Notes under the pieces: generated by a model
Databases searched by the model: none
Told to the model about the DNA's origin: nothing
What the model saw: the letters and a program-made list of their open reading frames with translations, nothing else
In this document: one piece after another, positions 8,594-13,096 of the stretch
Position numbering within the stretch: the stretch's first letter is position 1
Layout: each line of letters begins with the position of its first letter
Translations under genes and position numbers: made by a program
From: a bacterium
GTDB lineage: Bacteria > Hydrothermota > UBA3072 > B12-G15
Direction of reading: 5' to 3'
NCBI GenBank assembly: GCA_003646055.1
Contig: QNDZ01000028.1
Location: 1 to 13,096, forward strand
DNA: 13,096 bases

Positions 8594-10283
8594 GGTTGTT
8601 CCCTCCTTTTAAAACAATTATGCCCTCAATAATCAGCCAGAGTTCCAGAAGGAAAACAGCGATACCAATGCCGAAAAGAAGGTGGTTGTGCTTCAAGAAA
8701 AAGTTTATTATGTTCTTAATCATTGCATATCCTGTCATGGTAATCATAAAAACCATGGGTATTCCAGAGATAAGAAGATTTTTTTTATGCTTTTTCAAAT
8801 AAACCGTGATTATCAGGAGTGCAAGCCCAGCAAGCAACTGGTTCACTGTGCCGAAAAGTGGCCAGAGTATCATTGCCCCCTTTCCTCCTTTTTGAGAAAA
8901 CGCTAGAAGCGCTGCTGTTAAAACTGCAATAAATGTGGTGAAGTATCTGTTTTTAACCCATTCCCATTTTGCTCCTGAGAGAAACTCAGTTATAACGTAT
9001 CTCTGTACCCTTGTGGCAGTATCAAGGGTTGTTCCTGCAAATGAGACAATGAATACACCCATTATGGTTGCAGCAACTATATGTGGAATTCTTAATGCCT
9101 CCATTAGATTTGCTGAACCAGTTATAAATGCAGTGAGTTTTGCACCAAGCCCTGACGAACCAAGATAACTGGAGTAATGGGTCTGCCAGGCCTGGAACCC
9201 ACGAAGGATTTCTCCTGATTTGGTAATGTATTTTATACCGATGCCAGCTGATACTGAGATAAGGACGAGTATTGCAAGGAAACTCTCAAACAGCATCCCA
9301 CCATAACCAACAAAAAGTGAGTCTGATTCCTTTAATATCTGTTTTGAGGATGTTCCAGAACTGACCAGACTGTGAAAACCTGAGATTGCTCCACATGCAA
9401 CAATAACAAATATGAACGGAAGTATGGGGGGTGCATCAGCAGGGGGTGTGTTTATTCCAGGTGCAACAATCTGGGGGTGTGCAAAAAGGACACCAAGAAA
9501 CAAAAGGGACATGGCAATGATTAACTGGAATGCATTTATGTAGTCCCTTGGCTGGAGCAGAACCCATACAGGAAGTGTGGATGCAAAAAAGACATAAATA
9601 AGCAAGATTAGAACCCATATCTCAACAGAACCAACATGCCCCAGAGAGGGTATTTTGATAGGAAAGTGTGCACCCACAATAATGGTTATGTACATAAAAA
9701 TAATTGCAATAATGCTAAGAAGAGTAACATTCATTTTTCTTCTATATACAAGAACACCCACTCCAATTGCAATGGGTATCTGGAACCAGACAGGGAAGAC
9801 AGATTCTGGATAAAGGTTGAAGAGGACACCCATTATCATTGCAAATATTGCTATCACAATCCAGAGTTCAAAAAAGATAATTAGAAAAAAAAGAACCCTT
9901 GCCCTCTGATTGATAATGGAAGAGGTGAGTTCACCAATGGAGACACCTCCGTTTCGTAATGAAACAATTAGGGAACCAAAATCGTGAACCGCACCCATAA
10001 AGATTGACCCAAAAACAAGCCATAATAGGGCTGGTATCCATCCCCATATGATTGCTATTGCCGGACCAACAATGGGACCAAGGCCAGCAATAGAAGTAAA
10101 ATGGTGGCCGAATATTATCTCCTTCCGTGTTGGAACATAGTCAATACCATCCTCTTGTTCAACAGCAGGTGTTTTATTGGTATTATCAAGTTTAAAGAGT
10201 TTCTTTGCGATAAATTTTCCATAGGTGTTATATGCAATTATATAAAGAAAAAATGTAAAAATTGCCAGAAATATGCTGTTCAT
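8571..10283 (-). CDS. cstA: CstA-family carbon starvation transporter (short form)
   Basis: CstA proteins are multi-pass inner-membrane carriers; characterised enterobacterial members take up pyruvate (BtsT, CstA) and are linked to peptide use. This 570-residue chain has some 15 or more hydrophobic spans and the family signatures: F-G-H-H-F-T-S-I-A-G (58-67) with G-P-I-V-G-P, G-A-V-H-D-F-G-S-L (97-105), Q-P-R-D-Y-I-N (244-250), S-G-F-H-S-L-V-S-S-G-T-S-S-K-Q (301-315) and F-A-G-T-T-L-D-T-A-T-R-V-Q-R (415-428). E. coli members are about 700 residues; this is the shorter form common in anaerobes and Gram-positives. I start at ATG 10283 because AAGGAGG is 4 bases upstream; an in-frame ATG 48 bases earlier would precede the promoter. 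The substrate is not readable. It is divergent from a GAF/HD-GYP gene rather than next to a BtsSR-type two-component system. Confidence 0.95.
   Translation of the reverse strand: MNSIFLAIFTFFLYIIAYNTYGKFIAKKLFKLDNTNKTPAVEQEDGIDYVPTRKEIIFGHHFTSIAGLGPIVGPAIAIIWGWIPALLWLVFGSIFMGAVHDFGSLIVSLRNGGVSIGELTSSIINQRARVLFFLIIFFELWIVIAIFAMIMGVLFNLYPESVFPVWFQIPIAIGVGVLVYRRKMNVTLLSIIAIIFMYITIIVGAHFPIKIPSLGHVGSVEIWVLILLIYVFFASTLPVWVLLQPRDYINAFQLIIAMSLLFLGVLFAHPQIVAPGINTPPADAPPILPFIFVIVACGAISGFHSLVSSGTSSKQILKESDSLFVGYGGMLFESFLAILVLISVSAGIGIKYITKSGEILRGFQAWQTHYSSYLGSSGLGAKLTAFITGSANLMEALRIPHIVAATIMGVFIVSFAGTTLDTATRVQRYVITEFLSGAKWEWVKNRYFTTFIAVLTAALLAFSQKGGKGAMILWPLFGTVNQLLAGLALLIITVYLKKHKKNLLISGIPMVFMITMTGYAMIKNIINFFLKHNHLLFGIGIAVFLLELWLIIEGIIVLKGGNNLVWEKEK
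8601..8610 (-). promoter_or_regulatory. Shine-Dalgarno site fixing a TTG start
   Basis: On the minus strand the sequence reads AAAAGGAGGG, placed 7 bases before the TTG at 8593-8591. It lies within the last codons of cstA. The lack of any close in-frame ATG and the strength of this site support the TTG start and translational coupling to cstA. Confidence 0.75.
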
Positions 10284-10287
10284 ATAA

Positions 10288-10294
10288 CCTCCTT
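10288..10294 (-). promoter_or_regulatory. Shine-Dalgarno site of cstA
   Basis: The minus strand reads AAGGAGG followed by TTAT and then ATG. The match is strong with slightly short spacing (4 bases, or less if the pairing extends into GGTTAT). It decides the cstA start at 10283 against the in-frame ATG at 10331. Confidence 0.85.
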
Positions 10295-10302
10295 TTTTCA
10301 AT

Positions 10303-10331
10303 GATGTATCAGAAAATAAAAATTTTGTCAA
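10303..10331 (-). promoter_or_regulatory. Candidate cstA promoter (TTGACA, extended -10)
   Basis: On the minus strand a perfect TTGACA -35 (10331-10326) is followed after 17 bases by TACATC (10308-10303), preceded by TG plus one base, giving an extended -10 of the form TGnTACATC. The hexamer itself is weak (3/6) but the extension compensates. Transcription would start near 10296, just ahead of the AAGGAGG site, leaving a leader of about 15 bases. Confidence 0.55.
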
Positions 10332-12235
10332 TGAATTTTTTGCTTGACATAATAAAATTTTTCACCTATGGTTTGTATGTGAGAAAGAGTATAGAGATTT
10401 TAAAAGAGGAATTAAAGCAGGAAAACCTCCGGGTCAAAGACGCTTTTATCTTTCACTCTCTTTTACCGCCTCTTTATGAAAAAGAGGTGATGCAAATATT
10501 TCATAAATCCCCAGATGGAATAAACTGGCATGATGGTATATGTGTGGTTAAGAAGGATGGAAAGGGCATTATTTTCAAGGTTGAAGAAGAGTCAAAACCA
10601 CACTTCAAGAACTGGATTGAGGTTGCAAGGCCTTTTGTGTTCACCCTAATTGAAATTTCTGCATACAACTACATAAACAATGAAATCATGGCGTTGATAA
10701 ATGAAATAGCAGAAACAGATAGAATAGAGGATATCTATGACCACATTACAGTGAGGATTGCTCGTATATTAAAGGCAGACCTTGCTGTTTTCACCCTTTA
10801 TGACTCTGCAAATAATATGGTTTATGCAGTTGGTCCTGGATATAACCTGACACCTGAACAGGTGAACATATTCAGGTTCAAACTTGAAGGGAATAGCATT
10901 GCACGTGTTGCAATGGAGAACAGGAAGAGTTATTTTACCAATGATGCATTCAACGACCCATACATAAAGAAGAAATTTGTAAAATACTTCAATGTTAAAC
11001 ATGTGATATGTAGCCCCATTTTTGTGTTTGGAAGCCCCTTTGGATTCATCTACATTGCAAGACATCCTGAAAAAGAGCCCTTCATGGATGAAGAGGTGGA
11101 ACTCCTTGATTATATTAATTCCCATATTTCATTACTTCTCAGATTCTTGAAGAGTCTTGATGGATTCAGGAAGCGTTCTGAGGCGTTGGTTAATCTGGAT
11201 AAGGCTGGTAGATTGATTGTAGCAGAAATGGACATTGGTAGAGTTTTTGACCTGATCGTAAGTGTTGCAACAGAATTATTCAATGCTGATGCCTGTTCAC
11301 TGATGCTTCAACAGGAGAACGAAAAGATTTTTCGTATAGTCTCGGCATCCGGTCTCTCAGAAAAGTACAGGGCCTCCCATTACCTTACACTTGAGGAGGT
11401 TCTCAGGGTTAAGGATGAACATTATAAAGGTAAGCCAATATTTATAAAGAATTTTTCTGACGTTATAGAGAGGGATCGGGATTTGATAGGTAGGGAGGGT
11501 ATAGTTTCAGTACTTTCTGTTCCCATACTTGTTGATGAGGAAATTTATGGAATTCTGAATCTTTACTCAAAGAAAGAAGTAAGATACGATGAGGAGAGTT
11601 TTGACATACTGGAGGCCTTTGCACTTGAGGTTTCAATTGCAATAAAGAATGCAGAACTTTATGAAAAGGCAGTCAGGACAACATCAAGTATTATAAAGGT
11701 TCTTTCTGAACTGGAATCACAGAAGGATTCATACACAATGAACCATTCAGAAAATGTTGCCAGGCTTGCTGTAAGGATAGGAATAAAGATGGGACTATCT
11801 GAGGATGAAATTGATGCCCTCTACAAGGCAGGCCTCCTTCATGACATAGGAAAGGTGATTGTTGAAAAACAGATACTCAGGAAACCCGGGCCACTTGGAG
11901 AAGAGGAGAGGAAGGAGATGGAGGAGCACCCGGTAATTGGTGCACGTATAATTTCACATATTAAGGGATTGGAAAAGGCATCTGAAATTGTTTTACACCA
12001 TCATGAGAGATACGATGGCAAAGGATACCCTTACAGGCTTAAAGGGGAAGAGATTCCCCTCTGTGCAAGGATATTAACTGTTGCAGACTCAATAGAGGCA
12101 ATGATGTCAGAAAGACCATACAGACCCTCCATGAGTTTAGAGCAGATTATAGAAGAATTAAAAAGGGAGAAGGGGAAGCAATTTGACCCGAAGGTCGTTG
12201 ATGTAGCAATTAATCTTCTTTTGGCAGGGAATTGA
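10331..12235 (+). CDS. Tandem-GAF HD-GYP protein (putative c-di-GMP phosphodiesterase)
   Basis: HD-GYP domains hydrolyse the second messenger c-di-GMP. In the 634-residue form from ATG 10331, an unrecognised N-terminal region (1-120) is followed by two GAF ligand-binding domains (about 127-270 and 300-440) and the HD-GYP domain (about 450-630). Metal and signature residues are present: H472 in T-M-N-H-S-E, H504-D505 in L-L-H-D-I-G-K, H533, H557-H558 in L-H-H-H-E-R-Y, D562-G-K-G-Y-P567 and D586. Position 468 is Tyr, where trinuclear members have an acidic ligand, so a binuclear centre is expected. No clear TM segment is seen; residues 1-16 are hydrophobic and may be an amphipathic helix. Start is uncertain: ATG 10331 and GTG 10379 both lack a Shine-Dalgarno site, and the candidate promoter favours GTG 10379 (618 residues). 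The GAF ligands are unknown. Confidence 0.92.
   Translation: MNFLLDIIKFFTYGLYVRKSIEILKEELKQENLRVKDAFIFHSLLPPLYEKEVMQIFHKSPDGINWHDGICVVKKDGKGIIFKVEEESKPHFKNWIEVARPFVFTLIEISAYNYINNEIMALINEIAETDRIEDIYDHITVRIARILKADLAVFTLYDSANNMVYAVGPGYNLTPEQVNIFRFKLEGNSIARVAMENRKSYFTNDAFNDPYIKKKFVKYFNVKHVICSPIFVFGSPFGFIYIARHPEKEPFMDEEVELLDYINSHISLLLRFLKSLDGFRKRSEALVNLDKAGRLIVAEMDIGRVFDLIVSVATELFNADACSLMLQQENEKIFRIVSASGLSEKYRASHYLTLEEVLRVKDEHYKGKPIFIKNFSDVIERDRDLIGREGIVSVLSVPILVDEEIYGILNLYSKKEVRYDEESFDILEAFALEVSIAIKNAELYEKAVRTTSSIIKVLSELESQKDSYTMNHSENVARLAVRIGIKMGLSEDEIDALYKAGLLHDIGKVIVEKQILRKPGPLGEEERKEMEEHPVIGARIISHIKGLEKASEIVLHHHERYDGKGYPYRLKGEEIPLCARILTVADSIEAMMSERPYRPSMSLEQIIEELKREKGKQFDPKVVDVAINLLLAGN
10344..10372 (+). 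promoter_or_regulatory. Candidate promoter of the GAF/HD-GYP gene
   Basis: A perfect TTGACA -35 (10344-10349) and TATGGT -10 (10367-10372, 4/6) are spaced by 17 bases. Predicted transcription start is about 10379, which is an in-frame GTG of the GAF/HD-GYP gene. The site would lie inside the reading frame if translation starts at ATG 10331, so promoter and that start exclude each other. Confidence 0.45.
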
Positions 12236-12253
12236 TATTCCCATGTGGAAAAG

Positions 12254-12262
12254 GTGTGGATA
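12254..12262 (-). promoter_or_regulatory. DnaA box (perfect consensus, minus orientation)
   Basis: TGTGGATAA is the exact reverse complement of the classic DnaA box TTATCCACA. It is one of two perfect copies in the spacer, and I found no other perfect copy in the window. Confidence 0.65.
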
Positions 12263-12314
12263 AATCGGAATAACCCTACAACAACCTCAAAATCAATGTA
12301 ATAAGCGTAAACCA

Positions 12315-12323
12315 TTATCCACA
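12315..12323 (+). promoter_or_regulatory. DnaA box (perfect consensus, plus orientation)
   Basis: TTATCCACA matches the DnaA consensus in all nine positions. It faces the copy at 12254-12262 across 52 bases. Flanking bases do not extend the inverted match, which argues for two protein-binding sites rather than a hairpin. Confidence 0.65.
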
Positions 12324-12345
12324 AACATATTAAAAATCAACAGGC

Positions 12346-13096
12346 TTATTCTACTCTGTTTGAAAGGGTTGAATTGAATATATTTAATCTATTTATTTTT
12401 AAATGATTATGTTGAGCAGTTAAAGTTTCCTCATAGAGGTTCTTCCATGTCTTTATGGTCTTTTTTATATGAAAGTTGTTTATTATTGTCTCTCTTGCAT
12501 GCATTTTTATTTCTCCTGCTTTGTCCTTGTGGGTTAACAGGTATTTTATTTTGTCATATACTTCCTCTGGTGAATTTTTATTAAGAAGTAGTCCGTTTAC
12601 ACCATCAATCACCACATCCCTTATCCCGCCAACATTGCTCACAACAGGTATAAGACCAGATGCCATAGCTTCAAGTAATGAATATGGGAGGCCTTCAAAT
12701 TCACTTACAAGGATAAAAATCCCAAAGTTCTTGAGAAGGTAATTATCAACGGAAATGAATCCAGTGAATTTAACCCTGTTTGTGAGTCCAAGTTTTTTTG
12801 TTAGTAGTTCAAGTTTATTTCTATCCCTGCCTTCGCCAACAATGGTGAGATGCAATCCAGGGAATTCTTTGGCAAGCAGTGAAAAACCTCTGATTAAGAT
12901 ATCAGTTCGTTTTTGCTTCATCTCAAGTCTGGATATGGTGAGTAGATTATTCAGATTTAATCCAGGGAATTTGTTCTGCATCTCCACACCGTTGTTTATA
13001 TAACCCTGATAAAAATCACCAATCAGTGTGCTGTTCATTTTAAGAACTGTTCTGGAACATGCAATATTGATTGATAATGGTGCTGTGAATCTTTCA
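12346..13096 (-). CDS. Glycosyltransferase family 4 (GT1-type), C-terminal part, 5' truncated
   Basis: The frame stays open from the internal ATG at 13038 to the right edge of the window, reading through an A-C-S-R-T-V-L-K segment, so the N-terminal acceptor domain lies outside. The visible 249 or so residues are the nucleotide-sugar-binding half of a GT-B enzyme: L-L-T-I-S-R-L opening strand, then H-L-T-I-V-G-E-G, V-K-F-T-G-F and the donor-binding E-F-E-G-L-P-Y-S-L-L-E-A-M-A-S-G-L-I-P, followed by G-G-I-R-D-V-V and V-N-G-L-L. GT4 enzymes build polysaccharides and glycolipids at the inner face of the membrane. A polar tail of about 25 residues follows the domain. Base composition is somewhat more AT-rich than the left-hand genes and CGA appears for Arg, as often seen in surface-polysaccharide loci. 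Sugar and acceptor are unknown. Confidence 0.92.
   Translation of the reverse strand, partial: ERFTAPLSINIACSRTVLKMNSTLIGDFYQGYINNGVEMQNKFPGLNLNNLLTISRLEMKQKRTDILIRGFSLLAKEFPGLHLTIVGEGRDRNKLELLTKKLGLTNRVKFTGFISVDNYLLKNFGIFILVSEFEGLPYSLLEAMASGLIPVVSNVGGIRDVVIDGVNGLLLNKNSPEEVYDKIKYLLTHKDKAGEIKMHARETIINNFHIKKTIKTWKNLYEETLTAQHNHLKINRLNIFNSTLSNRVE

Follow-up and report, generated by a model that had tools for sequence, protein, structure and literature searches.

A recurrent predicted DnaA-box element in WOR-3-type bacteria: a candidate DnaA-binding site outside the origin

INTRODUCTION

DnaA recognizes short 9-mers in other bacteria, and two such boxes that face each other in the short spacer between two convergent genes raise the question of what they are doing there: whether they mark an origin of replication, hold DnaA away from one, control a neighbouring gene, or are simply there by chance. 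The window considered here (the whole 13,096-nt stretch of DNA that was analysed) is contig C28 of a 1.87-Mb draft genome that is 80.6 % complete. Among named sequences, the closest relative is JAGGTX010000121.1, from candidate division WOR-3 (the Caldifarciminota of the NCBI taxonomy), whose matching locus is the same as contig C9 of G001, a genome of the same genus. In the excerpts available of PMC4585315 and PMC13220808, off-origin control sites for DnaA are described mainly from Escherichia coli and Bacillus subtilis. Literature searches on the WOR-3 oriC and on DnaA in Stahlbacteria returned no paper, and searches on extra-oriC DnaA boxes gave no report of this element among the matches listed.

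THE ELEMENT IN THE WINDOW

The first-pass annotation had described two exact, facing DnaA boxes in a convergent spacer, and both are indeed there, as the only two exact copies of TTATCCACA in the window (Table 1), although the left one occupies 12255-12263 on the minus strand rather than 12254-12262. A third box lies 2 bp beyond it, the copy previously scored as 7/9, which in fact matches TTATCCACA at 8/9 positions; in alignment A3 the f2 elements have an exact TTTTCCACA or TTATCCACA box at the place of this outer box, whereas their inner box has degenerated, e.g. to TTATCAACA in G005. Read on the forward strand from left to right, the three boxes are TGTGGAAAA, TGTGGATAA and TTATCCACA, and all of them fall within the 110-bp spacer (12236-12345) that separates the two genes. 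As a possible RNA stem-loop, the spacer is unremarkable (z = -1.17).

Table 1. Predicted features of the element and its flanks (positions within the window)
Feature	Position	Strand	Remark
Gene for a GAF-GAF-HD (HD-GYP-like) protein	10262..12235	+	Ends directly left of the element
Outer box of tandem pair, predicted DnaA box, TTTTCCACA variant	12244..12252	-	Identical in G001
Inner box, exact predicted DnaA box TTATCCACA	12255..12263	-	2-bp gap to outer box, i.e. 11-bp phase
Spacer between facing boxes, 51 bp	12264..12314	.	34/51 bases the same in G001
IHF-consensus-like stretch AATCAATGTAATA, 1 mismatch to WATCAANNNNTTR	12291..12303	+	Weak, possibly chance
Right-hand box, exact predicted DnaA box TTATCCACA, oriented towards the tandem pair	12315..12323	+	Unchanged in 7/7 rows of A3, an invariance partly selected, as the search behind the f2 rows required boxes
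Gene for a group-1 glycosyltransferase, converging	12346..13095	-	Right of the element; cut by the window end

Near the middle of the spacer is a stretch that resembles the IHF consensus, taken here as it is quoted in the accessible part of PMC4585315. Among the seven f1 and f2 sites, the match is exact in three (G002, twice, and G005), has one mismatch in the window's own genome, G001 and G003, and has two in G004. Depending on the site, it is equalled in 0.3-69 % of shuffles (7 % for the window's own site) and surpasses 95 % of them in only 3/7 sites, such that the motif is a hint only.

As for the left flank, cstA (8666-10128) is mostly missing from the otherwise collinear G001 locus (L030/L011), where both gene ends remain, which reflects either a deletion there or an assembly fault. 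In G003, the TPR-M24-rhomboid block seen at the left of the window is inverted and ~5 kb away from the element, an arrangement that may be due to chance.

BOX FREQUENCY AND CONSERVATION

With one mismatch allowed, the window contains 12 box matches against 5.2 expected, a count reached in 1 of 200 shuffles. The genome as a whole has 50 exact boxes in 1.87 Mb (22 for the pattern written backwards), or about one per 37 kb, and is thus richer in them than the one per ~130 kb assumed in the first-pass annotation. Simple arithmetic from the 50 boxes predicts, genome-wide, ~0.09 pairs within 70 bp in any orientation and ~0.02 facing pairs. After the pair in the spacer, the two boxes that come nearest to each other are on contig C9 of the same genome, 228 bp apart and inside an open coding-like frame. 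This pair and a match on C140, which falls within the dprA gene, were both rejected as second copies, leaving the genome with one copy of the element.

In G001, 27 of the 27 box bases are identical, as against 62 of the 83 other bases of the spacer (Fisher p = 0.0017), and this conservation is stronger evidence against chance than are the statistics of box spacing. Loss of the boxes from relatives that keep the flanking genes, or an abundance of similar pairs, had been named beforehand as signs against a functional site; what was found instead is boxes conserved in G001 and pairs that are rare, mostly one per genome.

RECURRENCE ACROSS THE PHYLUM

A strict scan for exact facing pairs 40-65 bp apart identified them in 30 of 147 genomes of the phylum, compared to 1/147 for the reversed pattern that served as control. 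Setting aside G110 (a 66-bp ribosomal L20-like coding copy) as well as G130 and G133 (other pairs) leaves 27 genomes, distributed over families f1 (2/2), f2 (1/6), f11 (19/23), f19 (4/4) and f33 (1/4). A looser scan, accepting TTATCCACA or TTTTCCACA on either side with 41-71 bp between them, matched 40/147 genomes (control, 1); it recovered an 81-bp version in four of the six genomes of f2, which belongs to the same order as f1, with two occurrences in G002, and further matches came from G009 (a loose one, at 64 bp), f28, f34 and others. The pairs spaced at 66 bp in five f11 genomes (G098 and G107-G110) were rejected, as the pair at L082 is coding sequence for ribosomal protein L20; L082 was the one checked, and the verdict on the remaining four follows from their similar sequence. 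These exact, facing and apparently intra-coding pairs are at L082, L091, L093 and L094 (G098, G107, G109 and G110, respectively), and also in G108.

A sequence model built from the seven f1/f2 sites (site GC, 0.20-0.36) found two sites in tandem in G006, a genome absent from model building (E 1.6e-10 and 1.6e-6), bringing f2 to 5/6 genomes with the 81-bp version; G007 and G008 had no clear site. The model's best match is the element, weakly, in G016 of f11 (E 3.9e-4) and G035 of f19 (E 0.013), and the f33 element was matched at E 1.5e-6 in a search of locus sequences, but scores like that of G016 also arise where no element is known (G029, E 8.2e-4; G017, beside dnaA, E 2.1e-4). Much of the cross-family signal resides in the boxes and the distance between them. 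The element is mostly single-copy, with two copies in G002 and in G006; in the latter, the two stand in tandem between nth and the gene for an LTD protein.

Counts of boxes and neighbours in f11, f19 and f33 are based on the 22 of 24 sites contained in alignment A2 (G098:C132 and G107 were left out). Because the facing boxes of A2 were selected for, their invariance is given no weight as evidence, and most rows of A3 were likewise selected by box. Starting from the single box, the f1 layout reads box, 51 bp, box, 2 bp, box, and the f2 layout reads box, ~52 bp, degraded box, 2 bp, box, so that arrangement and spacing are alike in the two families (A3). In f11 and f33, a box is followed by 57-59 bp, a second box, mostly a weak box after 2-3 bp, and then an exact box; this extra exact box, which was no requirement of the scan, sits at a fixed 12-bp gap in 18/18 sites examined (20 are known). 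In three of the four f19 sites, the extra exact box is on the opposite side, with an 11-bp gap. In general terms, the element consists of a single box, 51-59 bp of AT-rich DNA, and two or three tandem boxes opposite, in ~11-bp phase and pointing at the first, f19 differing in the side of its extra box. At L178, L179, L182 and L267, the f2 elements have more boxes ~70-300 bp away.

A CANDIDATE SITE FOR DNAA CONTROL OUTSIDE ORIC

The reading that we favour, at a probability of roughly 0.48, is that of a dedicated DnaA-binding element outside oriC, which would titrate DnaA or change its nucleotide state in the manner of datA, DARS or the B. subtilis clusters. It is favoured because the boxes are conserved, the element recurs, a third box appeared that the search had not asked for, the flanking genes differ, and, in G004, the element is located away from the skew switch. 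Counting against it are the failure to find dnaA above the family cut-off in the incomplete G000 (the window's own genome) and G001, the 5' position of the element outside f1, the constant neighbours in f11 and f33, the two copies in G002 and G006, the weakness of the IHF-like motif, the comparable model scores in G029 and G017, and the want of a clear site in G007 and G008.

DnaA binding, looping and an effect on initiation are all matters that we infer. DnaA would load on the tandem boxes and oligomerize there; the spacer would bend or loop, perhaps with the help of an HU/IHF-type protein, allowing the tandem-bound DnaA to contact the facing box and there to be held or changed. Limited in copy number and away from oriC, the element, once duplicated by the fork, would withdraw DnaA from the free pool or change its ATP/ADP state, and would in this way limit or time initiation.

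The same working principle underlies datA, DARS and the B. subtilis clusters. According to the part of PMC4585315 that was available, boxes 2 and 3 of E. coli datA, its IHF site and their spacing all matter. Both datA and the present element are non-coding, lie outside oriC and contain DnaA boxes. In datA the boxes number five and the IHF site is proven, whereas here there are three boxes and a possible resemblance to such a site, in a different phylum. Measured against datA's fixed spacing of boxes around an IHF site, f1 and f2 agree in spacing, while the IHF-like match is exact in three of seven sites and weak by shuffles. DARS1 and DARS2 of E. coli, also outside oriC and non-coding, have a core of three DnaA boxes in that excerpt (PMC4585315), the same number as here, the comparison being one of box number rather than of orientation or spacing base by base. 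DARS2 differs in needing Fis and IHF. In B. subtilis, as reported in the portion of PMC13220808 at hand, there are six DnaA-box clusters outside oriC, and deleting all six leads to early initiation; most carrier genomes here have, in contrast, one clear element with one facing layout. A box group outside oriC is what is seen in G004, and for the window's own genome this holds by analogy only.

A bolder and unlikely proposal is that WOR-3-type bacteria possess an old, mostly single-copy DnaA element of fixed layout (facing box, bendable AT-rich spacer, tandem boxes) in varied neighbourhoods, which switches nucleotide state as datA or DARS does. If this were true, off-origin DnaA switches would not be peculiar to enteric bacteria. 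The generality of off-origin DnaA control could be probed with an element that sequence alone reveals in several families of an uncultivated phylum, and this one offers a definite 80-bp DNA for assay.

NEIGHBOURING GENES AND TRANSCRIPTIONAL CONTROL

The strongest competitor, though still rather unlikely, is that DnaA looping over the facing boxes turns a neighbouring promoter down or up, the target differing by family. In families other than f1 the element does occupy a 5' region, the position expected of a promoter element. In f2 it is upstream of the LTD protein, the YceD/plsX operon or rplM: the order nth, element, LTD gene is found in G003, G005 and G006, with element and LTD gene in G004, and G002 has nth, element and plsX operon plus a second copy before rplM. 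In f11 and f33 it precedes a MoxR-type ATPase gene, and rpiB, a metallo-hydrolase gene, the element and MoxR follow one another in 18/18 loci examined; in f19, gyrA, the element and a gene for a 328-aa protein lacking a Pfam match do so in 4/4 loci. Yet no single gene is common to all families beside the element, and in f1 (the window's own genome and G001) both neighbours are convergent and end at it. The LTD gene was rejected as a fixed target, as homologues in G002, G008, G000 and G001 stand without such a pair alongside. Since a like layout accompanies different genes in different families, action in trans is favoured over the control of a single gene. A local effect on a promoter nevertheless keeps some probability, all the more given the constancy of neighbours within f11 and f33.

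THE ORIGIN QUESTION

It is improbable that the element is oriC or a second origin, with its AT-rich spacer as the unwinding element. Like an oriC, it joins exact facing boxes, a box cluster, to AT-rich DNA, and it is mostly present once per genome; in G002-C3, G003 and G004 most of the genes point away from it, gyrA adjoins it in f19, and in G002 the raw GC-skew minimum falls at the element, ~8 kb from dnaA, where the genes part. It differs in strand composition, judged in G004 and G003 from the skew of four-fold sites after correction for gene direction. On G004 contig C17, where the element is mid-contig, corrected skew is +0.14 to +0.205 over 1-100 kb on the left (the 20-40 kb piece having too few minus-strand genes), +0.055 in the 11 kb adjoining the element, and +0.105 to +0.22 over 111-231 kb on the right, i.e. 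of one sign on both sides. On contig C43 of the same genome, it is -0.16 over 80-100 kb and +0.135 over 100-120 kb, changing sign across dnaA/dnaN, the raw cumulative minimum of the 80-135 kb stretch is at 106 kb, at dnaA, and the interval between dnaN and dnaA contains exact boxes (105753 and 105823). With no switch at the element and a sharp one at dnaA/dnaN, a main origin at the element was rejected for G004.

Other genomes lean the same way or are ambiguous. In G003, at 20-kb resolution, the sign of the skew also changes at the piece containing dnaA (-0.09 before, +0.19 after). In G002, corrected skew is noisy and changes sign nearer dnaA. In G108 and G109, whose single contigs are contigs joined by 100-N runs, so that long-range skew was abandoned for local values, all pieces near the element have one sign except for -0.02 to its right in G108, and there is no clear local switch at the element; G016 is uninformative, its element being 3 kb from a contig end. 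In the window, where the contig ends and a switch had to be judged in relatives, the plus strand to the left of the boxes is rich in G, the opposite of what an origin there would give, although gene direction explains much of this. A full dnaA above the family cut-off was not found in G000 and G001, both incomplete, and is present in 36 of the 40 genomes searched, those two included; a search for the DnaA domain-IV motif matched one of three loci tried. The doubt about an origin voiced in the first-pass annotation thus holds in the relative G004. A skew switch elsewhere, with boxes at dnaA, which the same annotation had listed as telling against its reading, is also what G004 has. Overall, the interpretation given in that annotation is upheld in part, a titrating or regulatory site staying the most probable of the readings that it offered.

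REMAINING EXPLANATIONS

Slightly less probable again is a roadblock, in which DnaA bound between convergent genes would halt transcriptional read-through. The f1 layout is convergent, and a case from E. coli, where the excerpt seen of PMC10950094 reports that DnaA binding near the asnC terminator hinders transcription, counts in its favour; in the other families seen, though, the element is outside convergent gene pairs. Very improbable is a target or relic of a mobile element, i.e. a Y1 (IS200-like) transposase that recognizes DnaA-box-like ends. The window's own genome does encode a 351-aa Y1 frame with a weak match to the DnaA C-terminus, there are two copies of the element in G002 and G006, and a 69-bp TTTTCCACA repeat occurs in four copies in G049, but the DnaA-like match is just 19 bits and Pfam reports none, the position of the element is constant in the 18/18 f11/f33 loci, and the own genome has one copy. 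That the boxes arose by chance in an AT-rich spacer is scarcely credible despite the 50 exact boxes of the genome, the conservation in G001 and the recurrence across the phylum having already made it unlikely.

The Y1 transposase with the DnaA-like C-terminus is encoded at L269:400-1452, and similar partial matches occur in other genomes. The 69-bp repeat of G049, which runs from TGTGGAAAA to TTTTCCACA, is present with the same sequence four times, at L174 (contig C25) and on contigs C59, C96 and C123, twice at contig starts, and is likely a mobile or repeated element.
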